Shown one piece after another: positions 11,012 through 42,892 of a stretch of DNA of 43,184 nucleotides. Position numbers and translations under genes: made by a program. Source of the stretch: Megasphaera sp. NM10 (GTDB lineage Bacteria; Bacillota; Negativicutes; Veillonellales; Megasphaeraceae); assembly GCF_000417505.1 (NCBI RefSeq), contig NZ_APHY01000049.1:1-43184 (forward strand), given 5' to 3'. The stretch's first letter is position 1. Each line of letters opens with the position of its first letter. Under the pieces are notes generated by a model, which was given only the letters and a program-made list of their open reading frames with translations, made no database searches and had not been told where the DNA came from.

Positions 11012-11600
11012 GCGTAGGGGCCGCCTGGGTAAGGCGGCCCGCCGTGAGATTTAACCACAACCCATTCGGGTATAATGGCGGATTTTACGAGCTACGAATC
11101 ACGGGTCACGGCTTTTTCACGGACTCAGATGCGGCTATGCCGCGACAGACTCAGGATTGTATTACGACCGGGTGTCATCTGTCATAAATTCCGGCTATGC
11201 GCAGGATTCACGGCGGCCTTTTTGGCCCGTCAGGTGCCGACCAACGGAAGGCGCAGGACGGTTGCCAAAACGGACAGCCGTGGCTGGACGCCTTTCAGGG
11301 CGTCCCCCTACGATATCGCATACAGGCGATGAATGAGAACTCTGGTTACATGACAAAAAAAATACACGGCCCATGGCCTTGTGCGTAGGGGCTCGCATGT
11401 GGCGAGCCCGCTAGGGAGATTTCATCACAGCCCATGCTGGTATAATGGTGAGGGTTTACGGACTACGAGCCGAGGGTCACTCGAGGCGATGTCGTTCTTC
11501 TGAATCTGTTGCCGCGTAGCGGCATTTGAATCCGAGGCGGCCTGCGACCTGCGGGGCCGCCAGGCCCCACGAACCACTAGCCACTAGCCACTAGCCACTA
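11012..11600. repeat. Mosaic of dispersed repeats, no gene
   Basis: This ~590-bp gap holds single family A arms (11015 GTAGGGGCCGCC..., 11386 GTAGGGGCTCGC...), each followed by a GAGATTT(C/A)A...GGTATAATGG segment. It also holds family C ends facing each other (GACTCAGATGCGGC near 11121 and GCCGCGTAGCGGCATTTGAA near 11509) and terminal CCACTAG strings. The same modules flank the nuclease gene at 19381. No ORF here has a ribosome-binding site or family resemblance. From 10921 to 11011 nothing is recognisable. Confidence 0.7.
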
Positions 11601-19016: not shown

Positions 19017-19354
19017 GAATCAGATGCGGCGTTCCGCCGCGACAGACTCATGAAATAAACGCAGATGGCAGGCCGCAGGTAGCAGGTCGCAAAAATAACC
19101 CCAATCGGGGCATTCGTAGGGGGCGACTTTTAACCTCTCAGACCGCCTTTGGCGGCCAGCTCCCCTATAAAGGGAGCCTTGTGCGGCCCGTTGCGAGATT
19201 TCATCACATCCTATTCGAGTATAATGGCAGGCTTTTACGAGCCACGAGCCACGAGCCACGAACCACGAGCCACGATTTTTTCCACGAGCCGAGGGTCACT
19301 CGAGGCTATGTATTCAATTTGAGTTTGTTGCCGCGCAGCGGCATTTGAATCCGA
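19017..19354. repeat. MITE-like composite repeat, upstream copy flanking the nuclease gene
   Basis: About 338 bp with inverted family C ends: GGAATCAGATGCGGC...CGCGACAGACTCA on the left and TTGAGTTTGTTGCCGCGCAG...TTTGAATCCGA on the right. Inside are a family A arm at 19111 split by a family B copy (19133-19180), the GAGATTTCATCACATCCTAT...GTATAATGG segment, CCACGAG tandem copies (19236-19275), and GCCGAGGGTCACTCGAGGC. A near-identical copy lies downstream of the nuclease at 20458. Confidence 0.75.
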
Positions 19355-20457: not shown

Positions 20458-20765
20458 TTCGGATTCAGATGCGGCTATGCCGGAAATAAACGAAGTTCGC
20501 TGGTTGCAGTTAGCAGACCGCAAAAATAGCCCCAATCGGGGCATTCGTAGGGGCCGACTTTTAACCTCTCAGACCGCCTTTGGCGGCCAGCTCCCCTATA
20601 AAGGGAGCCTTGTGCGGTCCGTTGCGAGATTTCATCACATCCTATTCGAGTATAATGGCAGGCTTTTACGAGCCACGAACCACGAGCCACGAGCCACGAT
20701 TTTTTTCACGAGCCGAGGGTCACTCGAGGCGATGTTGTCAATTTGAATCTGTTGCCGCGCATTGG
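20458..20765. repeat. MITE-like composite repeat, downstream copy flanking the nuclease gene
   Basis: Repeats the order of the 19017 copy in the same orientation: family C left end (GGATTCAGATGCGGCTATGC), family A arm split by family B (20566-20612), GTATAATGG segment, CCACGAG tandem, GAGGGTCACTCGAGGC. The right end breaks off at GTTGCCGCGCA and passes into other repeat debris (GGACGCCCTTTGGGCGTCCC) up to 20841. Confidence 0.75.
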
Positions 20766-29786: not shown

Positions 29787-29875
29787 TGGCGGAGCGGGTG
29801 GGATTCGAACCCACGAGACCTTTCGGCCTAACTGATTTCGAGTCAGCCCCGTTATGACCACTTCGATACCGCTCC
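29787..29875 (-). tRNA. tRNA-Ser(CGA)
   Basis: Reading the minus strand: acceptor GGAGCGG pairs with CCGCTCC, then discriminator G and encoded CCA. The anticodon stem CTGA/TCAG holds loop CTCGAAA with anticodon CGA, decoding UCG. A long variable arm (GGCCGAAAGGTC) identifies the serine class, and the T-loop is GTTCGAATC. It is on the opposite strand to its neighbours. Confidence 0.95.
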
Positions 29876-31875: not shown

Positions 31876-32005
31876 CAAGCTGTTAGTAGCTAGGGGTCAG
31901 GGGTTAGCAGATATCGTTCGTCATAAATCCCGGCTGGGCACAGGATTCACGGCGGCCTGCGAACTGCGACCGGCGGCCTGCGGGCCACGAGCCCCTAAAA
32001 AGCCC

Positions 32006-32035
32006 TTCACAGGGGCGGCCTATATATGGTATTAT
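32006..32035 (+). promoter_or_regulatory. Candidate promoter of the miaB-miaA operon
   Basis: TTCACA, an 18-bp spacer, then TATTAT, 49 bp before miaB. The preceding 130 bp are repeat debris without a gene. Confidence 0.4.
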
Positions 32036-32083
32036 ATACTGTAAACCCTAAATTATGATTTTTGTGAAAAACGGAGAGAATAC

Positions 32084-33412
32084 ATGGATTTTCAGAGCAA
32101 TCGATTTTATCATATTATTTCTTATGGCTGTCAGGCGAATATGTCTGACAGTGAGCATTATGCCGGTCAGTTGGAGGAGCTGGGCTATCACAATACGGAA
32201 GATTTGGATACAGCCGATGTCATCCTCATCAATACGTGTTGTGTCCGCGAAACGGCGGAAGACAAGACGCTGGGGAAAATCGGCGAACTCAAGCATTTGA
32301 AGAAGCAGAACCCCGATTTGATCATTGCCGTCACGGGCTGCATGGCCCAGGAATGGCAGGATAAGCTCTTCAAGCGGGCGCCGCACATCGATTTGGTCAT
32401 CGGTACGCACAATATCCACAAGCTCATCGAGCTCATCCGGGAACGGCGCAGCAAGGCCGACCATTATATGGCTGCCGACATGACCCTGCCGGCTTTCCAT
32501 GATATGCCGGTCAAGCGCTTCCAGAAATTCTTTGCCTGGATCCCCATCATGAACGGCTGCAACAAGTTCTGCACGTACTGTATCGTGCCTTATGTCCGGG
32601 GCCGTGAAGTGAGCCGTCCCATCGACGCCATTGTCGAAGAAATCAAGAAGGTCGCTGCTGAAGGCTACAAGGAAATCACCCTTCTCGGCCAGAATGTCAA
32701 TTCCTATGGCCTGGACCTCAAGGACGGCACGGATTTCTCCAAGCTCGTCGCCGCTGTCGACGATATCGACGGCATCGAACGGGTCCGGTACATGACCAGC
32801 CACCCCAAGGATATGACTTTTGCCATGATCGACGCCATTGCCGACAGCAAAAAGGTCGTCAACCACATGCATCTGCCCATCCAGTGCGGTTCTGACGAGC
32901 TCTTGAAGAAGATGAACCGCGGCTACACGGTGGAACATTACCTGGAACTCGTCGACTATGCCCGCAAGCGCATGCCCGACCTGGTCCTGACGACGGACAT
33001 CATCGTCGGCTTTCCAGGCGAAACGGAGGCCATGTTCGAAGATACGCTGAACCTGCTCAAGCGCGTCCAGTACGACATGGCCTATACCTTCATCTATTCG
33101 CCGCGGACGGGGACGCCGGCGGCCAAGATGGAAGACCAGATCCCGCAGGAAGAAAAGAGCCGCCGTCTGCAGCGGCTCATGGATGTGCAGAACGTCTATA
33201 GTTTAGCAAAAAATAAAGAAATGGAAGACCACGTCTATGACGTCATCGTTGAAGGGCCGACCAAGAACGATGCCAACCACTGGTTCGGCCGGACGACGGG
33301 CAACAAGATGATCATCTGGGAAAATGACGGTTCCGTCGCCATCGGCGATACCGTGCCGGTCCAGGTCGACAAAGGCCAGACGTGGGTCCTCAAAGGTCAC
33401 TTAGTGCACTAA
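32084..33412 (+). CDS. miaB: tRNA-2-methylthio-N6-isopentenyladenosine synthase MiaB
   Basis: A 442-residue radical-SAM methylthiotransferase converting i6A37 to ms2i6A37 in tRNAs. The N-terminal UPF0004 cluster uses cysteines in SYGCQANMSDSE, INTCCVRETAE and TGCMAQ. The radical-SAM cluster is CNKFCTYC, followed by PYVRGREVSRP. A TRAM domain ends the protein (about 380-442). ATG 32084 has ACGGAGAG upstream. First of a compact operon that also holds miaA, which makes its substrate. Confidence 0.97.
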   Translation: MDFQSNRFYHIISYGCQANMSDSEHYAGQLEELGYHNTEDLDTADVILINTCCVRETAEDKTLGKIGELKHLKKQNPDLIIAVTGCMAQEWQDKLFKRAPHIDLVIGTHNIHKLIELIRERRSKADHYMAADMTLPAFHDMPVKRFQKFFAWIPIMNGCNKFCTYCIVPYVRGREVSRPIDAIVEEIKKVAAEGYKEITLLGQNVNSYGLDLKDGTDFSKLVAAVDDIDGIERVRYMTSHPKDMTFAMIDAIADSKKVVNHMHLPIQCGSDELLKKMNRGYTVEHYLELVDYARKRMPDLVLTTDIIVGFPGETEAMFEDTLNLLKRVQYDMAYTFIYSPRTGTPAAKMEDQIPQEEKSRRLQRLMDVQNVYSLAKNKEMEDHVYDVIVEGPTKNDANHWFGRTTGNKMIIWENDGSVAIGDTVPVQVDKGQTWVLKGHLVH

Positions 33413-33426
33413 AGGAAGGTGAGACT

Positions 33427-36024
33427 TTGGCAGGAAAAAAATTAACGCCTATGATGCAGCAGTACATGGAAGTCAAAGAGCAGTGCCAGGATAAGATTCT
33501 CTTTTTCCGCCTCGGCGATTTCTATGAAATGTTTTTTGACGATGCGCTGACGGCGTCACGCGAACTCGACCTGACCCTGACCGGCCGGGCTGGCGGCAAT
33601 AAAGAGAAGGTCCCCATGTGCGGCGTACCTTTCCATTCGGCCGACACCTATATCGAACGGCTGGTCCACAAAGGCTATAAAGTCGCTATCTGTGAACAGA
33701 TGGAAGACCCGAAGCTGGCCAAGGGGCTGGTCAAGCGCAAGATCATCAAGGTCATCACGCCGGGGACGATTACCCTGGAGAATGCCGTGGCGTCGAAGAA
33801 GAACAATTACATCGGCTGCCTGACCGAAAGCGATGCCATCCTTTCCATCGCCCTCATGGACGTCACGACGGGCGAATGTTTGTGGGCCGACTGTGCGGCG
33901 TCGGTCATGGAAGATTCCCTGTTCGACATCCTGGCCGTCTACGAACCGAGTGAGCTCATTTACGCCCACATGGGGAAGGATATGGATGCCGTCCGCGAAT
34001 ACCTGCGCAGCCACCTGGCCCAGTGTACGGTTACGGAATTTCCTGCCGATGACAGTGTCGATTACCGGGAACAGGCCCGGTCCTATTTCCCGCCGGAAGA
34101 CTTTGCCGCTGCCTCGGTGGCCGGCGAGTGTATCGGCATGCTCCTGGCCTATGTCAGTGACGTCATGCAGTCCGATATTTCCCACATCAATTCGCTGGAA
34201 CATATCGATAATGAACGGCGTCTGGTCGTCGATGCGGCCAGCCTGCGCCACCTGGAAATCACGCAGAACGTCCGCGACGGCGGCCGCCGGGGGACGCTCC
34301 TCGATGTCCTGGACAAGACTAAGACGGCTATGGGCGGCCGGCTCCTGCGCAAGTGGCTGGAAGCGCCGCTCATCCGCATTGCCGACATTACGCGCCGCCA
34401 GGATGCCGTCGAAGATTTCGTCCTCCACGAAATCATGCGCCAGGACACGGCAGACGTGCTGGACCGGATTTACGATTTTGAACGCATCCTGACCCGCATC
34501 GAAACGGGGACCGTGAGCCCCAAGGACCTGGTAGCCCTGCGGGAATCCCTGGCCGTCATCCCGCAGCTGAAACAGGTCCTGTCCGGTGTCAGTGCCGACC
34601 TCCTGCACAGCCTCAATGACCGCTTGCAGACTCATGACGACGTCTATGACCTGCTCTGCCGGGGCATCAAGGACGAACCGGGCCTGGTCATCCGCAACGG
34701 CGGCGTCATCCGCGACGGCTTTTCGCCGGAACTCGATGAAATCCGCTCCATTGCGGCCAACAGTCATGCCTTTTTGCAGGAACTGGAAGAGAAGGAACGG
34801 GAAAAGACGGGCATCAAGATGAAAATCGGCTATACTAAGGTCTTTGGCTATTACTTCGAGATTTCCCATGCCAATACCAAGCCCATCCCCGATTACTACG
34901 TGCGCAAGCAGACGTTGGTCAATGCCGAACGCTACATCACGCCGGAATTGAAGGAATTTGAAGTCAAAGTCCTGACCAGCCAGGAACGGATGCTGGCGCT
35001 GGAATACAAGCTCTTCGGCGATATCCGCCGCCAGATCCAGGGCCATATCCCGGCCATGCAGGAAACGGCCCGGGCCATTGCCTGCATCGACTGCCTGTAC
35101 AGCCTGGCCTGCGCGGCCTATGACAACCGCTACGTCCGTCCCAGCCTCAATACCAAGGCGACGATTTCCATTAAGGACGGCCGCCATCCCATTATTGAAA
35201 AGTATTTGAAAGACGAATTGTTCGTGCCTAACGACGTCACCTTGAACCATGAAGACCATGAAATCCTGGTCATCACCGGCCCCAACATGGCCGGCAAGTC
35301 GACGTATATGCGCCAGGTCGCCGTGCTGGTCCTCATGGCCCAGGCCGGCTCCTTCATTCCCGCCAAAGAAGGGTCTATCTGCCCGGTGGACCGCATTTTT
35401 ACCCGTATCGGTGCCAGCGACGACATCCTCACCGGCCAGAGTACGTTCATGATGGAAATGAAGGAAGTGTCGTACATCCTGAAACACGCCACCAGCCGCA
35501 GCCTGCTCATCCTCGATGAAATCGGCCGCGGCACGAGTACCTTCGACGGCATGTCCATCGCCCGGGCTGTCATCGAATACTGCCTGAAGCACATCCACGC
35601 CCTGACGCTGTTTGCGACGCACTACCATGAGCTCATCGCCATGGCTGACGATTCGCCGAAAATTAAGAATTATACCGTCGCCGTCAAGGAACGGGGCAAG
35701 AACATCAAGTTCCTGCGGCGCATCATTCCCGGCGGGGCCGACCGCAGCTATGGCCTGCACGTCGCCCGTCTGGCCGGGCTGCCCGAAAGCCTGCTCAAGC
35801 GGGCCGACGTCATCTTGGAAGACTTGGAAAAGAACGGCGGAGCACCCGTCCCGGCCAAGGCGCCTGTGAATCCGGCGCCGTCACCCATGGGAGACAGCCT
35901 CTTTTCCAGTCCCGTCATCGACAAGTTGCTCAGCGTCGATGTCAGCAGTATGACGCCGATTGAAGCGATTTCTTTCTTATATAATCTGCAAAAAGATGCC
36001 AAAGAAGGAAGTGGGATCCAGTGA
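33427..36024 (+). CDS. mutS: DNA mismatch repair protein MutS
   Basis: An 865-residue mismatch-recognition ATPase. The N-terminal mismatch-binding domain has the FxE-type motif in FFRLGDFYEMFFDDA. Connector, lever and clamp domains follow, then the ABC ATPase with Walker A GPNMAGKSTYMRQ from residue 618, LTGQSTFMMEM, Walker B LLILDEIGRGTSTFDG and ATHYHEL. The start is TTG 33427 with AAAGGAAGGTGAG upstream; earlier codons overlap miaB without a ribosome-binding site. It overlaps mutL by four bases (GTGA), so the partners are coupled. Confidence 0.97.
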   Translation: MAGKKLTPMMQQYMEVKEQCQDKILFFRLGDFYEMFFDDALTASRELDLTLTGRAGGNKEKVPMCGVPFHSADTYIERLVHKGYKVAICEQMEDPKLAKGLVKRKIIKVITPGTITLENAVASKKNNYIGCLTESDAILSIALMDVTTGECLWADCAASVMEDSLFDILAVYEPSELIYAHMGKDMDAVREYLRSHLAQCTVTEFPADDSVDYREQARSYFPPEDFAAASVAGECIGMLLAYVSDVMQSDISHINSLEHIDNERRLVVDAASLRHLEITQNVRDGGRRGTLLDVLDKTKTAMGGRLLRKWLEAPLIRIADITRRQDAVEDFVLHEIMRQDTADVLDRIYDFERILTRIETGTVSPKDLVALRESLAVIPQLKQVLSGVSADLLHSLNDRLQTHDDVYDLLCRGIKDEPGLVIRNGGVIRDGFSPELDEIRSIAANSHAFLQELEEKEREKTGIKMKIGYTKVFGYYFEISHANTKPIPDYYVRKQTLVNAERYITPELKEFEVKVLTSQERMLALEYKLFGDIRRQIQGHIPAMQETARAIACIDCLYSLACAAYDNRYVRPSLNTKATISIKDGRHPIIEKYLKDELFVPNDVTLNHEDHEILVITGPNMAGKSTYMRQVAVLVLMAQAGSFIPAKEGSICPVDRIFTRIGASDDILTGQSTFMMEMKEVSYILKHATSRSLLILDEIGRGTSTFDGMSIARAVIEYCLKHIHALTLFATHYHELIAMADDSPKIKNYTVAVKERGKNIKFLRRIIPGGADRSYGLHVARLAGLPESLLKRADVILEDLEKNGGAPVPAKAPVNPAPSPMGDSLFSSPVIDKLLSVDVSSMTPIEAISFLYNLQKDAKEGSGIQ

Positions 36025-38105
36025 GTTCAATCATTCATGTCTTAGATGAAGCAACGCGCAATAAGATTGCTGCCGGCGAAGTCGTCGAACGGCCGGCATC
36101 GTGCATCAAAGAACTCGTAGAAAATGCCATCGATGCCGGTGCCCATGCCATTGAAGTGGAAATCGCCGACGGCGGCCAGTCCTATATGCGGGTCACTGAC
36201 GACGGCTGCGGCATGAGTCCGGAAGATGCCCATAAGTGCATCATCCGCCACGGTACGAGCAAGATCAGTTCCGTCGAAGATATTTTTGCCATTACGTCTT
36301 TAGGCTTCCGCGGCGAAGCCGTGCCCAGTATCGCCGCCGTATCGCACATGCAGATCACGACGCGCCAGGCCAGCGATGACTTTGCGACGCACCTCATCCT
36401 CGACGGGGGCGAAATCACGGCAGAAGACCAGGCCGGCGCACCGGTCGGGACGACGATGGAAGTGAGCGACCTCTTTTACAATACGCCGGCGCGGCGCAAG
36501 TTCCTCAAGAGCGAACGGACGGAAAGTTCGAAAATCTCTGAAATGGTGACCAAACTGGCCCTGGCCAATCCGGCCATTGCCTTTACTTTTACCAATAACG
36601 GCCGGACGACAATGAAGACCGGCGGCACCGGCGATTTGCGGGAAACCGTTGCCAATATCTACGGCGCCAACGTCGCCCGCGATGTCTTTGCCGTCACTGC
36701 CGACCAGGACGGTATCAGCCTGGAAGGCTATGTAGGCAAGCCGTCGGTCTTAAAGAGCAACCGCAACTGGCAGACGTGCATCGTCAATCACCGCATCGTC
36801 CATAATCCCTTGATGTTCAAGGCCATTGACAATGCCTATCATGCCATGCTGCCGAAATCGGGCTATCCCTTTGCCATGCTCCACCTCCACGTCGACCCGG
36901 CGACGATTGACGTCAACGTCCATCCGGCTAAGACGGAAATCAAATTCTCTGATGAACAAGCCGTCTACCGCGCCATCTACCACAGCATCGTCACGGCCCT
37001 GGTGGCCCAGGAAAAGCCCGAAGCCATCGCCAAGACCATCGGTGATGCTGTAGGGGCCGTCCCAGAGGGCGGCCCGCAGCAAGTCCATGTAGGGGCGCCC
37101 ACGTGGGGCGCCCGCTCGCAGGAGAGTGGCCAGGCAACCTCCGTAGGGGCCGTCCCAAAGGGCGGCCCGCAGCAGGCCCATGTAGGGGCGCCCACGTGGG
37201 GCGCCCGCTCGCAGGAGAGTGGCCAGGCAACCTCTGTAGGGGCCGTCCCAAAGGGCGGCCCGCAGCAAGCCCATGTAGGGGCGCCCACGTGGGGCGCCCG
37301 CTCGCAGGAAAGTGGCCAAGCAACCTCCGTAGGGGCCGTCCCAAAGGGCGGCCCGCAATGGGAAAAGGCAACCTCTCAGTCCGCTACGCGGACAGCTCCC
37401 CTATCAGGGGAGCCTCTTGCGGATGGTTCTTCCTTGTTTTCCCAGGCTTTGGCCCAGCATGGCCAGGGCGGCCCGTCGGAAGCGACGTCGGTCGTTTCCG
37501 AGGCGTCAGCGCCTAAAATCGTCTTTGACGGCGATGACGACGTCTTCATTCCCTTAGGGGAAGTGGCGGACTGCTTCATCATTGCCAAGAAGGGTCAGGA
37601 TTTATACATCGTCGATCAGCACGCGGCTCATGAACGGATCCGCTACGATACGTTCTGCAAGCGTGTCGAACGGATGCCGAGCCAGCAGTTGCTGACGCCG
37701 GAGTTCGTCGAAGTCGACAACGAGGATATGACGCTCTTATTGGAACGGCAGGATGTCTTCAACGACCTGGGCTATACCTATTCCGAAGCCGGGCCGACGA
37801 CGCTGCGCGTCGAAGAAGTGCCCTGCGATTTGCAGACCAGCGATATTGCCGATTCTTTAAAGGATATCTGCCTGCTCCTGCATGACCAGAAGGAACCGGA
37901 TAAAGCCATGGTCCGCCATCGTTCGCTGGCCTATCTGTCCTGCCACGGTGCCGTCAAGGCCGGAGACAGCCTCAATATCCGCCAGATGAAGCAGCTCCTG
38001 GATGATTTGTTCCATACGGAAAAACCCTACGTCTGCCCTCATGGCCGGCCGACGATCATCCGCTTTACGCCAAAAGAATTAGCGCACTTATTTAAACGGA
38101 CATGA
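36021..38105 (+). CDS. mutL: DNA mismatch repair endonuclease MutL with repeat-derived linker
   Basis: A 694-residue protein that couples MutS to strand incision. The GHKL ATPase domain (1-~335) has KELVENAIDAGA, DDGCGM, RHGTSKI and GFRGEA. The C-terminal dimerisation/endonuclease domain (~500-694) has DQHAAHERIRYD (532-543), CHGAVKAG and CPHGRPT. The canonical motif ends in Glu; here it is Asp543. Between them, residues 344-471 are made of repeats: three 31-residue units (VGAVPKGGPQQAHVGAPTWG...) and a partial fourth, followed by translated family B sequence. The frame is kept because each unit is 93 bp. The start GTG overlaps the mutS stop. The linker is normally variable and disordered, so function is probably retained. 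Confidence 0.95.
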   Translation: MSSIIHVLDEATRNKIAAGEVVERPASCIKELVENAIDAGAHAIEVEIADGGQSYMRVTDDGCGMSPEDAHKCIIRHGTSKISSVEDIFAITSLGFRGEAVPSIAAVSHMQITTRQASDDFATHLILDGGEITAEDQAGAPVGTTMEVSDLFYNTPARRKFLKSERTESSKISEMVTKLALANPAIAFTFTNNGRTTMKTGGTGDLRETVANIYGANVARDVFAVTADQDGISLEGYVGKPSVLKSNRNWQTCIVNHRIVHNPLMFKAIDNAYHAMLPKSGYPFAMLHLHVDPATIDVNVHPAKTEIKFSDEQAVYRAIYHSIVTALVAQEKPEAIAKTIGDAVGAVPEGGPQQVHVGAPTWGARSQESGQATSVGAVPKGGPQQAHVGAPTWGARSQESGQATSVGAVPKGGPQQAHVGAPTWGARSQESGQATSVGAVPKGGPQWEKATSQSATRTAPLSGEPLADGSSLFSQALAQHGQGGPSEATSVVSEASAPKIVFDGDDDVFIPLGEVADCFIIAKKGQDLYIVDQHAAHERIRYDTFCKRVERMPSQQLLTPEFVEVDNEDMTLLLERQDVFNDLGYTYSEAGPTTLRVEEVPCDLQTSDIADSLKDICLLLHDQKEPDKAMVRHRSLAYLSCHGAVKAGDSLNIRQMKQLLDDLFHTEKPYVCPHGRPTIIRFTPKELAHLFKRT
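37050..37416 (+). repeat. Three 93-bp tandem repeats plus partial copy and family B unit inside mutL
   Basis: Units start at 37050, 37143 and 37236, with a partial fourth at 37329. Each contains two family A arms (GTAGGGGCCGTCCCAAAGGG... and GTAGGGGCGCCCACGTGGGG...). A family B copy (CCTCTCAGTCCGCTACGCGG to CAGGGGAGCC, 37374-37414) follows. These are the intergenic repeats of this genome, here in a coding frame. Confidence 0.95.
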
Positions 38106-38931
38106 CTCATATGATTTACGTCGTGCCTTCATTGAAGGCCAAAGAAAAATTACAATGTGAAGGGAAAGCCTGGGCCGAAAGCCAGGGCTTTGCCTATGTG
38201 CCGCGGGGAAAGCGGACCATACAGGATTTGATGGATGAATACGGCGAGGATTTCCTCGTCTATTCCTCACGGGGGCCTCAGATAGACCGCCCGGAAGGCA
38301 GCCATTTCTTCAGCCTCAACATGGCTGAACTGCGCATCCAGAACCTGCGGAAAGGCCAGCGCGACCATCTCCTGGAAGCCTGATGGGGGTGAAGGAGTAC
38401 GACCTGCGGCCTGCAGCGGCACAGCCGCCCATTTCCGTCCTCGATTGTACCTGTGGTTTTGGCGCCGATGCGGCCGTCGCCTCTTTCGGTCTGCCGGCTG
38501 GCTCCCGCGTCGATGCCCTGGAAGTATCGCCTTTGCTGGAAGCCGTTACGGCCTGGGGCTTTTCCCACTTTGTCCATAAGAAAGACGACGTCACGGCGGC
38601 GCTGCGCCGGATTTCCCTGCGCTGTGGCGACTATCGCGATTATCTCTTATCCGATGACGGGCCTGTGTACGACGTCCTCTATTTCGACCCCATGTTCCAG
38701 CGGCCTGTCGAGGCGAGCTGCCAGTTCCAGCCCGTCCGGGCCATCATGGAACACGGCGGTCTGACGCGGGACCTCATCGAACGGGCGCTGCAGAAAGCCC
38801 GGCGCCGGGTGGTCATCAAAGAACGGGATTTCCGCCAGCTCTGCCGCGATTTCCCGGATGTTGCCTTATATGGCGGCAAATACAGCCGCATTGGCTATGC
38901 CGTATTGGAGTGTGATTCATGGAAAAAGTAA
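38102..38931 (+). CDS. Class I SAM-dependent methyltransferase, RsmJ-like (frameshift near 38380)
   Basis: Two adjacent frames make one protein of ~276 residues. The N-terminal part (MTHMIYVVPSLKAKEKL ... FFSLNMAELRIQNLRKGQRD) matches the leader of RsmJ-like methyltransferases found beside miaA in Negativicutes. The second part has the SAM motif VLDCTCGFGADAAVASFG and YFDPMFQRP. The join reads GAAGCCTGATGGGG; adding one C (GAA GCC CTG ATG GGG) restores EALMGVKE. Alternatively TGATG is a genuine stop/start overlap giving two peptides. It overlaps mutL by four bases and miaA by 13. The target is unknown; rRNA is likely. Confidence 0.78.
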
Positions 38932-39848
38932 TTGCCATCATCGGTCCGACGGCGGTCGGCAAGACGGCCCTCAGTTTTGCCCTGGCCGAACACTACGGGA
39001 CCGACCTCATTTCCGGCGACGCCTACCAGATTTACCGCCATATGGATATCGGTACGGCCAAGCCGACGGCGGACGAACTGGCCCGCTATCACCATTATCT
39101 CATCGATATTGCTGAGCCCGACGAACCCTATTCGGCAGCCCGCTTCTGTGATATGGCGGGAAAGGCCATTGCCGAAGTCAACGGAAAGGGGAAGATACCC
39201 ATTCTCGTCGGCGGTACGGGCCTATACGTCCAGTCCCTCCTGGAAGGCTATGATTTCCAGACGGCCCGCATGACCGAAGCCGACAAGGAAGCGGCCCAGG
39301 CGCGGATCGACGCTCTCAGTCAAGAGGAACTGAAGGCCTATATCGAGACAGAAACGGACTGGCAGCCGCCGGACTGGCACGAGCTGTTTTCCAACACGCA
39401 CCGCCTGACCCGCCTGGTCAGCGCCATCGAGCAGGGCGAAGGAAAATCTTTCGTCCGGGCCGGCAAGGCTCGGGATGTAGTCTATGACGCTTACGTCATC
39501 GGTCTGCGCCTGCCGCGGGATGTCTTGTACCGGCGCATTGAAGAGCGCGTCGACGCCATGATTGCCGCCGGCTGGGTTGATGAAGTGCGGTACCTGCTGG
39601 ACAAGGGCATCCCGCCGGGCTGTCAGTCCATGAAGGCCATCGGCTATCAGGAACTGGCCCTGTATCTCCAGGGACAGATGCCCCTCGATGACGCCGCAGC
39701 CCGCATCAAGACCCGGACGCGGCGCTTTGCCAAACGCCAGCTCACGTGGTTCAAACGCATGCCCTATATCCACTGGTACGACAAGGACCAGTACGATGGA
39801 GAAGAAGCATTGATACAGGCTGTGCTGGGGGATGTGCCTTTCCCATGA
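38919..39848 (+). CDS. miaA: tRNA dimethylallyltransferase MiaA
   Basis: A 309-residue enzyme that adds the isopentenyl group to A37 of tRNAs reading U-starting codons, giving i6A, the substrate of MiaB. P-loop GPTAVGKTAL (residues 9-18), SGDAYQIYRHMDIGTAKP, HHYLIDIAEPDEPYSAARF, VGGTGLYVQSLLEG and the C-terminal TRRFAKRQLTWFKR are all present. It overlaps the methyltransferase gene by 13 bases. Last gene of the operon; hfq, often next to miaA, is absent here. Confidence 0.97.
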   Translation: MEKVIAIIGPTAVGKTALSFALAEHYGTDLISGDAYQIYRHMDIGTAKPTADELARYHHYLIDIAEPDEPYSAARFCDMAGKAIAEVNGKGKIPILVGGTGLYVQSLLEGYDFQTARMTEADKEAAQARIDALSQEELKAYIETETDWQPPDWHELFSNTHRLTRLVSAIEQGEGKSFVRAGKARDVVYDAYVIGLRLPRDVLYRRIEERVDAMIAAGWVDEVRYLLDKGIPPGCQSMKAIGYQELALYLQGQMPLDDAAARIKTRTRRFAKRQLTWFKRMPYIHWYDKDQYDGEEALIQAVLGDVPFP

Positions 39849-39884
39849 CGGGAAGGCGCAGGCGGCAAGTAGAAAAGCAACCTC

Positions 39885-40207
39885 CGTAGGGGCCGTCCCA
39901 GAGGGCGGCCCGCAGCTGACAGCTCTCCTATGAGGAGAGCCGAAAGCCTCCCCTGATAGGGAGGTGCCGTAAGGCGGAGAGGTTTCCTTCAGCGACCTGC
40001 GACCTGCGAAACAGCGGACTGTAAGGAAAAAAGCAATCTCCGTAGGGGCCGTCCCGGAGGGCGGCCCGAAATGAAAAAAGGTCCTGAACGGTATAGCGTC
40101 TCATTGTCTGGAAGAACCTCTCAGTCAGCAGAGCTGACAGCTCTCCTATGAGGAGAGCCACTAGCCCCTAACACCTAACTACTATTCACTAACCACTAGC
40201 CACTAAC
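39885..40207. repeat. Dense repeat mosaic between miaA and the PLP lyase gene
   Basis: Contains family A arms (GTAGGGGCCGTCCCAGAGGG at 39888; GTAGGGGCCGTCCCGGAGGG near 40042) and three family B copies in both orientations (39918-39950, 39948-39990, 40119-40160). It ends with CCACTAGCC / CTAAC tandem strings. The CAACCTCC-GTAGGGGCCGTCC junction is the same as in the mutL units. No gene is seen. Confidence 0.75.
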
Positions 40208-40233
40208 TTATACATTCATTATAGAAAGGAATC

Positions 40234-41496
40234 ATGACATTGTCTTTGGATTTAGAAACATTACGAAAAGAAGCGCTGGCCGAATGTGCGGACCAGTTTG
40301 AACGCATTGATACGATTTGTCTCCATAATACGGCGAAAGTCCTGGCCGCTTATAAGGAAGCCCAGATTTCTTCGTACCAGTTTGCCGGTACGTCGGGCTA
40401 TGGCTACAGCGACATGGGCCGGGAAAAGCTCGATGAAGTCTTTGCCCGCGTCTTCAAGGCCGAAAAGGCCATTGTCCGGCCCCACTTCGTATCGGGGACC
40501 CATGCGCTGGCGACGGTCCTGCTGGCCCTGTTGCAGACCGGCGATCTCATGATGAGCCTCGTCGGGGCGCCTTATGACACGATGCAGGGCGTCATCGGCT
40601 ATGCCCATGAAACGCCGCACTCTTTGAAGGAAAAGGGCGTCCGCTATGAGGAAGTCCCCTTGAAGGACAACGCCTATGATTTGGCCGGCATTGAAGCGGC
40701 CGTCGCCGAAAAGCAGCCGAAACTGGTCCTCATCCAGCGTTCCCGCGGTTACAGCACGCGGGCATCCTTGACGATTGATGATATCCGTTCTATTATTTCC
40801 GTCGTCAAGAAGGTCAGCCCCAAGACGATTTGCTTCGTCGACAACTGTTATGGCGAATTTGCTGCTGAAGAAGAACCGATTGAAGCCGGTGCCGACATCA
40901 TCGCCGGGTCGCTCATAAAGAATCCCGGCGGCGGCATTGCTCCCACAGGCGGCTATATTGCCGGCAAGGAAGAACTGGTCCACGCCGCAGCCGACTACCT
41001 GACGGCTCCGGGCCTGGGCGACGAACTCGGTTCCTATGCAGCCGGCTACCGCCTCTTTTTCCAGGGCTTCTTCATGGCACCGCACGTTACGGCTCAGGCT
41101 ATCAAAGGGGCCGTCTTTGCAGCGGCTGTCTTTGAAAAGATGGGCTTCAAGGTCTCGCCGGCCGTCCAGGACCCGCGCGTCGACCTGATCCAGACCATTT
41201 ACCTGGAAAACGAACAGAACATGTGTCTCTTCTGCCAGGGTATCCAGTCCTTCTCGCCTGTCGACGCCCACGTCACACCCATTCCCGACGATATGCCGGG
41301 CTATGCCGATAAGATCATCATGGCCGCCGGTGATTTCGTTCAGGGTTCGTCTATCGAATTGTCGGCCGACGGCCCGATCCGCGACCCGTACATGATTTAT
41401 CTCCAAGGCGGCATCGTCTTTGAACACAATGTCCTGGCCATCCTCAGCGCAGCCCAGTACATTGCCGAACACCGGGAAGGAGCCGCTCATGATTAA
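40234..41496 (+). CDS. Methionine gamma-lyase family PLP enzyme (aluminium-resistance protein family)
   Basis: A 420-residue pyridoxal-phosphate enzyme of the fold-type I family once called aluminium-resistance proteins (YnbB-like). The PLP lysine is K229 in IAGSLIKNPGGGIAPTGGY. Other landmarks are QFAGTSGYGYSDMGREKLDE, RPHFVSGTHA, LIQRSRGYSTRASLT and FVDNCYGEF. The natural substrate is not settled. ATG 40234 has GAAAGGAATC upstream. It overlaps rnmV by eight bases, so it leads a three-gene unit with rnmV and rsmA. Confidence 0.93.
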   Translation: MTLSLDLETLRKEALAECADQFERIDTICLHNTAKVLAAYKEAQISSYQFAGTSGYGYSDMGREKLDEVFARVFKAEKAIVRPHFVSGTHALATVLLALLQTGDLMMSLVGAPYDTMQGVIGYAHETPHSLKEKGVRYEEVPLKDNAYDLAGIEAAVAEKQPKLVLIQRSRGYSTRASLTIDDIRSIISVVKKVSPKTICFVDNCYGEFAAEEEPIEAGADIIAGSLIKNPGGGIAPTGGYIAGKEELVHAAADYLTAPGLGDELGSYAAGYRLFFQGFFMAPHVTAQAIKGAVFAAAVFEKMGFKVSPAVQDPRVDLIQTIYLENEQNMCLFCQGIQSFSPVDAHVTPIPDDMPGYADKIIMAAGDFVQGSSIELSADGPIRDPYMIYLQGGIVFEHNVLAILSAAQYIAEHREGAAHD

Positions 41497-42034
41497 GGAA
41501 GTCCTCGTCGTCGAAGGCCGGTCCGATGTCGCCCGCATCCGGGCCAGTCACATCGACGTCGATATGATTACGACAGATGGTTTCAATTTGAAGCCTCACA
41601 CGCTGGAACAGATCCGCTGTGCTTATGAAAAGCGGGGCATCATCATCCTGACCGACCCCGACCGGGCCGGCGAACAGATCCGCAAGTTCCTGACCGACCG
41701 CTTCCCTAATGCCAAACACGCCTTTATCCCCAGGAAAGATGCCATTGCCAACAACGACCTGGGCGTCGAACAGGCCTCGCCGGAAGCCATCCGCCTGGCC
41801 TTGTCCAAAGTCCGCTGTGCGACGTATGAACCGCAGGCGACCTTTACCATGCAGGACATTTCCGCTGCTGGCCTCAACGGGACGCCTGATGCGGCCGACC
41901 GCCGGGCCGAAGTCGGCGCCATCCTGGGTATCGGCTATGGCAATGCCAAACAGTTTTTGAAACGCTTGAACCATTACGGCGTCACCCGTGACGAATGGGA
42001 TGATGCCCTCCGTCAGATCCACGAGGTGAAATAA
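41489..42034 (+). CDS. rnmV: Ribonuclease M5
   Basis: A 181-residue Toprim-domain RNase that matures 5S rRNA in Firmicutes. Toprim motifs VVEGRSD (E9) and LTDPDRAGEQIR (D56, D58) are present, and the C-terminal half (IGYGNAKQFLKRLNHYGVTR) is typical. It overlaps the lyase gene by eight bases, and rsmA starts directly after its stop. rnmV-rsmA is a conserved Firmicute gene pair. Confidence 0.96.
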   Translation: MIKEVLVVEGRSDVARIRASHIDVDMITTDGFNLKPHTLEQIRCAYEKRGIIILTDPDRAGEQIRKFLTDRFPNAKHAFIPRKDAIANNDLGVEQASPEAIRLALSKVRCATYEPQATFTMQDISAAGLNGTPDAADRRAEVGAILGIGYGNAKQFLKRLNHYGVTRDEWDDALRQIHEVK

Positions 42035-42892
42035 ATGAAAGAAGTCGACTTGTCCAATCCCGACGTCGTCCGCTACGTCGTCAAACGCTTTGGCCTGCGC
42101 ATGAATAAGAAACTGGGCCAGAATTTTCTCATCCGTCACGCCGTCGTCGACGACATTGCCGACGCTGCCGAAATCGGGGAGGGCGATCCGGTCCTGGAAA
42201 TCGGGCCGGGCATCGGCACCCTGACCCAGGCCCTGGCCGAAACGGGCGCAGCCGTCACGGCTGTCGAACTGGACGACCATCTGTTGCCCGTCCTCGACAA
42301 GACCTTGGAACACTATGACAACGTGCGCGTCGTCCACGGCGACATCCTGCGCATCGACATTGAAGAAGTCATGAATCACCAGCCCTTTACGGTCTGTGCC
42401 AATCTGCCCTACTATATCACGACGCCGATCATCATGAAGCTCCTGGAACAGAAGCTACCCATCAAGCGCATCGTCGTCATGGTCCAGAAGGAAGTGGCCG
42501 AACGCATGGTAGCCGAACCGGGCCATAAGATTTACGGGGCTCTGTCGGTGTCGGTCCAGTACTATACGCAGCCGCAGATGCTCTTTGAAATCTCGCCGAA
42601 ATGCTTCATGCCGGCACCGGAAGTCACGTCGGCCGTCGTCGCCATGGACGTCCGCCAGCAGCTGCCTGTCGATTTAATCGACGAAAAGCGCTTCTTCCAG
42701 GTCGTCAAAGCGGCCTTCCAGCAGCGCCGCAAGACCTTTTCCAACGCCTTGAAAAACACGGGCATGAGCAAGGAACAAATCGCCCAGGTCCTGGAAAAAA
42801 CAGGCATCGACGGCAAACGCCGCGGGGAAACACTGTCTCTCCAGGAATTCGCCGACATCGCCAACGCCTGGAGCGAGATTATTCGTGGCTAG
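42035..42892 (+). CDS. rsmA: 16S rRNA (adenine-1518/1519-N6)-dimethyltransferase
   Basis: A 285-residue methyltransferase (KsgA) that dimethylates two adjacent adenines near the 3' end of 16S rRNA during 30S maturation. KKLGQNFLIRH, SAM motif LEIGPGIGTLTQALAE, VELDDHL, NLPYYITTPIIMKLL (catalytic NLPY) and QQRRKTFSNALK are all in order. The ATG follows the rnmV stop within one base, with CACGAGGTG as ribosome-binding site. Confidence 0.97.
   Translation: MKEVDLSNPDVVRYVVKRFGLRMNKKLGQNFLIRHAVVDDIADAAEIGEGDPVLEIGPGIGTLTQALAETGAAVTAVELDDHLLPVLDKTLEHYDNVRVVHGDILRIDIEEVMNHQPFTVCANLPYYITTPIIMKLLEQKLPIKRIVVMVQKEVAERMVAEPGHKIYGALSVSVQYYTQPQMLFEISPKCFMPAPEVTSAVVAMDVRQQLPVDLIDEKRFFQVVKAAFQQRRKTFSNALKNTGMSKEQIAQVLEKTGIDGKRRGETLSLQEFADIANAWSEIIRG

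Follow-up and report, generated by a model that had tools for sequence, protein, structure and literature searches.

In Megasphaera sp. NM10, the linker that joins the ATPase and endonuclease parts of the mismatch-repair protein MutL is encoded by short palindromic repeats, belonging to families that are otherwise found mainly outside genes. The repeats begin at the same residue in NM10 and in its closest relative among the genomes compared (G002), but their arrangement differs between the two alleles; the spacings between them are biased towards multiples of three, and low dN/dS values point to strong purifying selection on both flanking domains. The probable explanation is that a tolerant, disordered MutL linker was replaced by REP-like repeats, and that these were then turned over under selection for the reading frame. 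The gene lies in contig NZ_APHY01000049.1, and the whole stretch of 43,184 nucleotides that was analysed is referred to below as the window.

The mutL gene and its internal repeats

A stop-free open reading frame (ORF) of 694 aa in the window was identified as mutL by a profile search (TIGR00585, 541 bits), in which both the N-terminal ATPase part, ending at residue 327 according to Pfam, and the C-terminal dimerisation part (MutL_C, residues 512-651) were matched. The motifs QQLLTP, DQHAAHE and CPHGRP were read in the C-terminal part, and we take them to be marks of an endonuclease MutL. Its neighbours include ORFs at 33382-36024 and 38919-39848, which are presumably mutS and miaA. The two ORFs located between mutL and miaA (38102-38383, 93 aa, and 38383-38931, 182 aa) correspond to a single ORF of 269 aa in G002, and the pair meeting at 38383 appears to be split or frame-shifted in NM10. 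An Rfam scan of the window gave a tRNA at 29790-29875 as its only passing match.

TRF detected a tandem array inside mutL with a period of 93 bp and 3.3 copies (96% matches, score 574; Table 1), and a repeat search placed three copies at 37048, 37141 and 37234, with spacings of 93 and 93. Any two units differ at 4 of their 93 bases, and the six variable sites comprise four synonymous and two replacement changes. Each unit contains two palindromes, A and A2. The sequence-only reading had placed in the MutL linker three units of 93 bp, part of a fourth and a family B copy, and this was confirmed by TRF and the repeat search. It had also assigned residues 344-471 to these elements; the repeat origin of this segment holds, but its extent does not, as the repeats together encode residues 344-466, between the end of the N-terminal part and the start of MutL_C. 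In the encoded peptide (frame VGAVPKGGPQ...), Gly, Ala, Ser, Pro and Gln are abundant. As had been noted, the 93-bp period keeps the frame and no stop interrupts it, but the tandem unit is open in five of its six reading frames, so that a stop-free array is unremarkable, and this feature was dropped as evidence.

The genome of NM10 was obtained with the 200-bp chemistry of Ion Torrent (PMC3832451); if such reads are the source of the window's assembly, they cannot span the 308-bp array, and the value of 3.3 units has to be read as an estimate. In a structure prediction, residues 345-470 were modelled as coil at pLDDT 25-32, but confidence was poor everywhere (mean pLDDT 47.9, and down to 23 in the C-terminal part), so that the predicted structure is no proof of linker disorder.

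Table 1. Positions in the window of mutL, of the repeats inside it and of neighbouring intergenic repeat copies.
Feature	Position	Strand	Basis or remark
mutL	36021-38105	+	ORF list; overlaps the presumed mutS upstream; two ORFs, then the presumed miaA, downstream
Tandem array, 3.3 x 93 bp, residues 344-446	37050-37357	+	TRF and repeat search
GTAG-tagged palindrome A, copy 1 (CAGA loop variant)	37050-37076	+	pattern match
GTAG-tagged palindrome A2, copy 1	37089-37113	+	pattern match
Palindrome A, copy 2	37143-37169	+	pattern match; hairpin fold
Palindrome A2, copy 2	37182-37206	+	pattern match
Palindrome A, copy 3	37236-37262	+	pattern match
Palindrome A2, copy 3	37275-37299	+	pattern match
Palindrome A, copy 4, opening the partial fourth unit (arm 37329-37357)	37329-37355	+	pattern match
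Double-hairpin repeat B; first stem CCGC/GCGG, in mutL copies only	37373-37414	+	pattern match and fold
Intergenic A copy, downstream of miaA	39886-39912	+	pattern match
Intergenic A copy	40042-40068	+	pattern match
Intergenic B copy (first hairpin), ordinary CAGC/GCTG stem type	40118-40143	+	pattern match

Repeat families A, A2 and B

Family A (GTAGGGGCCGTCCCnnnGGGCGGCCCG) was predicted to fold into a hairpin with a 9-bp stem, a 4-nt loop and an unpaired GTAG (-20 kcal/mol), which agrees with the stem-loop of 20-40 bp and unpaired terminal GTAG that define GTAG REPs. A2 is similar to A with another stem, and part of its tag pairs in the optimal fold; B was predicted to fold as a pair of hairpins. 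Of the 35 occurrences of the arm GTAGGGGCCGTCCCnnAGGGCGGCCCG in NM10, four lie within mutL; the reversed control pattern gave no match, so that the number of arms is far beyond chance. When 15 genomes of the genus were searched with patterns, family A was detected in NM10 (39 copies) and G002 (60 copies) and in none of the 13 others; family B was confined to the same two genomes (46 and 44 copies, respectively), and A2 was present in three (33 copies in NM10, 5 in G002 and 1 in G001). When 61 genomes of the order were searched with the linker peptide, it was recovered from two, both belonging to Megasphaera. Like the GTAG REP super-family, the repeats are multi-copy, mainly extragenic and limited to few species.

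Head-to-head dimers, with GTAG outside, prevail in most GTAG REP families (Di Nocera et al., 2013; PMC3733652). Among neighbouring A/A2 pairs at most 150 bp apart, eight of the nine formed by exact matches outside mutL had a single orientation and none was head-to-head, whereas with up to six mismatches 11 of 27 were head-to-head, one was tail-to-tail and 15 had the same orientation. Matches to PF01797 (Y1 transposase) numbered three in NM10 and three in G002, with one G002 gene in two pieces. At the five Y1 transposase loci read, no RAYT flanked by A, A2 or B was found; one locus (L198) begins 15 bases from a contig end, and a diverged transposase could be missed in this search. A RAYT was set aside as the mobiliser since the palindromes were absent at these five loci, and the loss of REPtrons is allowed for by Di Nocera et al. 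(2013; PMC3733652). Because no Y1 transposase at the loci read was flanked by the repeats and the head-to-head counts depended on the mismatch level, the repeats are labelled here as REP-like, and would fall short of full membership of the GTAG REPs. Three of the Y1 loci belong to NM10 (L198, L200 and L201) and two to G002 (L199 and L202), both G002 genes having internal stop codons; a bare GTAGGGG string follows closely on the 3' side of L198 and L202.

To place the repeats relative to genes, 168 pattern-matched copies were surveyed: every copy of G002 and, from NM10, the full set of 39 A copies, 10 of the 46 B and 9 of the 33 A2 copies. Fourteen lie in mutL (eight in NM10 and six in G002), and none of the other 154 has an ORF extending for at least 60 aa on both sides. 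Many of these 154 do overlap an ORF of at least 100 aa in one frame or another. In most such cases the copy is close to the ORF start or the ORF is a long one resembling a shadow frame, and some copies lie within small ORFs (101-141 aa) that never extend for 60 aa to both sides. When up to six mismatches were allowed in the same DNA, 157 A/A2 copies were detected, 11 of them in mutL, and one of the remaining 146 had at least 60 aa on both sides. This copy, an A2 of G002 with one mismatch (L107, position 1141615), lies in an opposite-strand ORF of 149 aa with flanks of 76 and 63 aa, and this ORF is probably spurious. The family searches and the copy survey thus support the earlier claim that the linker was built from repeat families otherwise located outside genes. 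As the copies in mutL appear to go back to a single colonised ancestor, they count as one gene hit and not as fourteen independent hits.

MutL linkers in other genomes

No such repeats were found in the MutL linkers of 10 of the 13 other genus genomes, which were read directly, nor by the peptide and pattern searches applied to the remaining three (G003, G008 and G014). A contig scan for more strains yielded 14 loci, seven of which (L031-L037) came from Megasphaera or a near relative, one of them (L033) carrying the name Veillonellaceae; none of the seven contained the repeats, and viral contigs gave no match. The linker of G004 looked repeat-like by eye, but convergence was rejected because its DNA matches only itself in that genome.

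Two M. massiliensis-like linkers contain 94 and 96 non-repeat residues at the place of the 130 residues of NM10, and their hydrophobic fractions are 0.14 and 0.16, with 0.15 in NM10. Since the sister-species linkers hold 94 and 96 ordinary residues, the repeats would have replaced the core of an older linker.

Comparison of the NM10 and G002 alleles

The two genomes align with 92.3% identity and no gaps over the 5101 bases of 31982-37082, with 88.3% identity and 30 gaps over 37437-39804, and with no gaps over the 2649 bases of 40223-42871. In both alleles, 343 residues precede the first palindrome. Beyond this point the repeat order, as read by eye, is three A-A2 blocks and then A-B in NM10, and A-A-B, what remains of the A2 block, A-A-B and more partial repeats in G002. 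The shared start residue and the different order suggest that the colonisation is ancestral and that the arrays were reshuffled later; the alleles thus differ in arrangement, instead of having the same number of units with diverged sequences.

A stem of the CCGC/GCGG type is present in all three B copies of mutL (one in NM10 and two in G002) and in none of 87 other B copies, which speaks for common descent and local duplication. With respect to the intergenic B copy of Table 1, the mutL copy carries this stem (37373-37398) in place of CAGC/GCTG on both sides, with pairing kept; by eye, one of the changes is synonymous in the mutL frame and the other replaces Leu by Arg.

Among the surveyed copies, spacings were measured within a family and strand over distances of at most 400 bp; they were multiples of three in nine of nine cases in mutL and in 5 of 16 cases elsewhere. 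This difference argues for selection of the reading frame, although its strength is reduced because five of the nine spacings derive from the single 93-bp period (the five distinct values being 93, found five times, 45, 48, 129 and 201). The dN/dS values between NM10 and G002 were 0.023 for the N-terminal part and 0.019 for the C-terminal part, by which both MutL domains appear to be under strong purifying selection.

Outside the gene, the intergenic repeats downstream of miaA (39848-40234) cannot be aligned with G002 while the flanking genes can, suggesting that intergenic repeat content also turns over fast.

Proposed replacement of the linker and turnover of the repeats

According to the explanation favoured here, REP-like palindromes would have entered the ATPase-endonuclease linker in the common ancestor of G002 and the species of NM10, and would have come to replace about 95 residues of the ancestral linker. 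The frame that the repeats offer, with the composition given above, may have made a tolerable flexible spacer, with which a working MutL survived. After the split, unequal exchange or slippage, to which tandem palindromes are prone, would have duplicated and deleted repeat blocks while selection purged the out-of-frame variants. NM10 carries the 93-bp block in amplified form; in G002, B is present twice and of the A2 arm no more than a remnant is left. The linker itself would act as a spacer, its precise sequence being of little importance.

MutL linkers are long and flexible spacers. Reducing the E. coli MutL linker from 100 to 60 residues led to loss of roadblock bypass in vitro but is described as causing no mutator phenotype in vivo (PMC6902014). 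This tolerance of a short linker and the similar hydrophobic fraction make it likely that a core of repeat-encoded peptide is tolerated too. On the other hand, shortened or scrambled disordered regions of yeast Mlh1-Pms1 are reported to ablate repair in vivo (PMC6393296), and the human MLH1 linker is reported to contain a vital motif (PMC10325900); therefore, linker sequence is not always free, and this counts against a passive spacer. In addition, the turnover is deduced from one comparison, as only two genomes bear the repeats.

The frame break in G002 and alternative explanations

In the deposited G002 sequence, the N- and C-terminal parts of mutL are in different frames and the N-terminal frame stops inside the repeats, thereby separating the ATPase and endonuclease parts. 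At the site of the break, an A-run has one A fewer than in the neighbouring repeat copy. Given the strong purifying selection on both parts, the break would be either very recent or a sequence error; otherwise, this allele fits a selected spacer poorly. Ribosomal frameshifting was discarded, as the slippery heptamer was absent at the break by eye. As a frame-break control, 125 ORFs of NM10 were compared with G002 DNA, where 43 matched with at least 80% identity and 38 were fully covered. Thirty-two of the latter were intact, six had in-frame stops and none was split between frames, some of the ORFs being perhaps shadow frames, and the 80% cut having removed the N-terminal part of mutL, itself split.

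We give slightly less than an even chance to the possibility that mutL of G002 is out of frame because of an error in base calling or assembly, and that the array length in the window is likewise assembly-dependent. This would concern single alleles and is compatible with replacement of the linker. The deposited G002 sequence probably derives from PacBio reads alone (PMC6346161), which may be wrong at an A-run enclosed by repeats. The A missing with respect to the neighbouring copy speaks for an error, as do the C-terminal dN/dS, from which any loss would be very recent, and the other frame difference between the two genomes nearby, at the ORF pair meeting at 38383. However, the two gapless alignments described above (though with the 30 gaps of the third) and the lack of split genes among the 38 control ORFs argue against it, and a one-base error cannot produce the rearrangement itself. 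The unsplit control ORFs, the altered repeat order and a break confined to the linker between otherwise intact parts would also be expected from a contingency locus, in which repeat reshuffling and small length changes toggle the mutL frame and generate populations with reversible mutators; repeat-length switching of mutL is documented in Salmonella (PMC2955026). We regard this as unlikely, since it is based on a single allele at an A-run where an assembly from long reads alone could err, the frame is kept in all nine mutL spacings, and an E. coli linker 40% shorter is described as causing no mutator phenotype in vivo (PMC6902014). A 93-bp change, moreover, stays in frame, and a switch needs frequent frame-changing events. 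For this reason and because of the E. coli result, the proposal of the sequence-only reading that copy-number change acts as a mutator switch is unsupported as formulated. Switching could instead come from changes of frame within the repeats, of which the deposited G002 allele would be one case, perhaps an error.

A broader version, in which the MutL linker of the M. elsdenii group would be a repeat-built contingency locus prone to rearrangement and frame loss, with mutator phases and with a burst of REP-like and 7-bp repeats as both cause and consequence of impaired repair, seems to us decidedly unlikely. It is highly improbable that the palindromes were kept because their hairpins act in the mutL mRNA, by slowing translation or protecting the transcript. 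The 386-nt region folds at -226.6 kcal/mol, compared to a mean of -191.6 kcal/mol over 100 shuffles (z -5.5), and the B stem of mutL is altered on both sides with its pairing preserved, as such a role would predict. But repeats of this kind fold wherever they are present, both arms of a stem can be changed by a single template-switch event without selection, and the pattern and peptide searches detected none in the mutL genes of the 13 other genus genomes.

Relation to known repeat systems

GTAG-tagged REPs, mainly intergenic palindromes of 20-40 bp, have been described inside DNA-repair genes by Di Nocera et al. (2013; PMC3733652), who suggested insertion into flexible linkers and speculated about hypermutable organisms. 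The Megasphaera repeats resemble them in tag and location, and also in that a repair gene is the sole tagged gene seen. They differ in that the core of the linker has been replaced by the insert, which is amplified in tandem and varies between two close genomes, and in that no Y1 transposase gene flanked by them was found at the five loci. The main text of that article contains no mention of mutL, mutS, Megasphaera or Firmicutes. Rickettsia palindromic elements, with 44 integrations in R. conorii of which nearly half are fused to ORFs (PMC10969869), are likewise in-frame palindromic repeats within genes of known function (PMC10969869, PMC3733652). In contrast to their insertion into many unrelated genes, mutL was the sole clear host among the Megasphaera copies surveyed, and the repeats in this one gene are tandemly amplified.

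In Salmonella, copy change of a 6-bp repeat converts mutL between functional and defective alleles (Chen et al., 2010; PMC2955026). Both cases involve a tandem repeat in mutL with a potential effect on mutability, whereas the Megasphaera units, known here from sequence alone, are 93 bp long, in frame, of mobile-type origin and located in the linker. Enterobacterial RU and ERIC elements (PMC2759123, PMC10969869) are similar as small intergenic repeats within reading frames, but the families and organisms are different.

No earlier report of palindromic repeats in mutL was found among the articles listed by searches of the open-licence literature. The present case extends the repair-gene kind of REP to mutL and to a genus of Negativicutes, with linker replacement, amplification and two divergent alleles. 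It is a clear and recent case of normally intergenic repeats becoming part of a DNA-repair protein whose ordinary linker is known from sister species. The 2013 proposal on REPs and hypermutability becomes testable in a cultured commensal, and comparison of the two outcomes offers a natural experiment on the small importance of sequence in the MutL linker.

Other tandem repeats in the window

The M. elsdenii-type pair formed by NM10 and G002 appears to have undergone a general repeat burst. Arrays of the 7-bp unit ACGAGCC are present in the window at 1898-1978, 19237-19275 and 20668-20699, together with a CCACTAG array at 11574-11600 and an array of period 21 at 40156-40205. Overlapping hits to ACGARCC numbered 37 in NM10 and 105 in G002, with none in the 13 other genus genomes.
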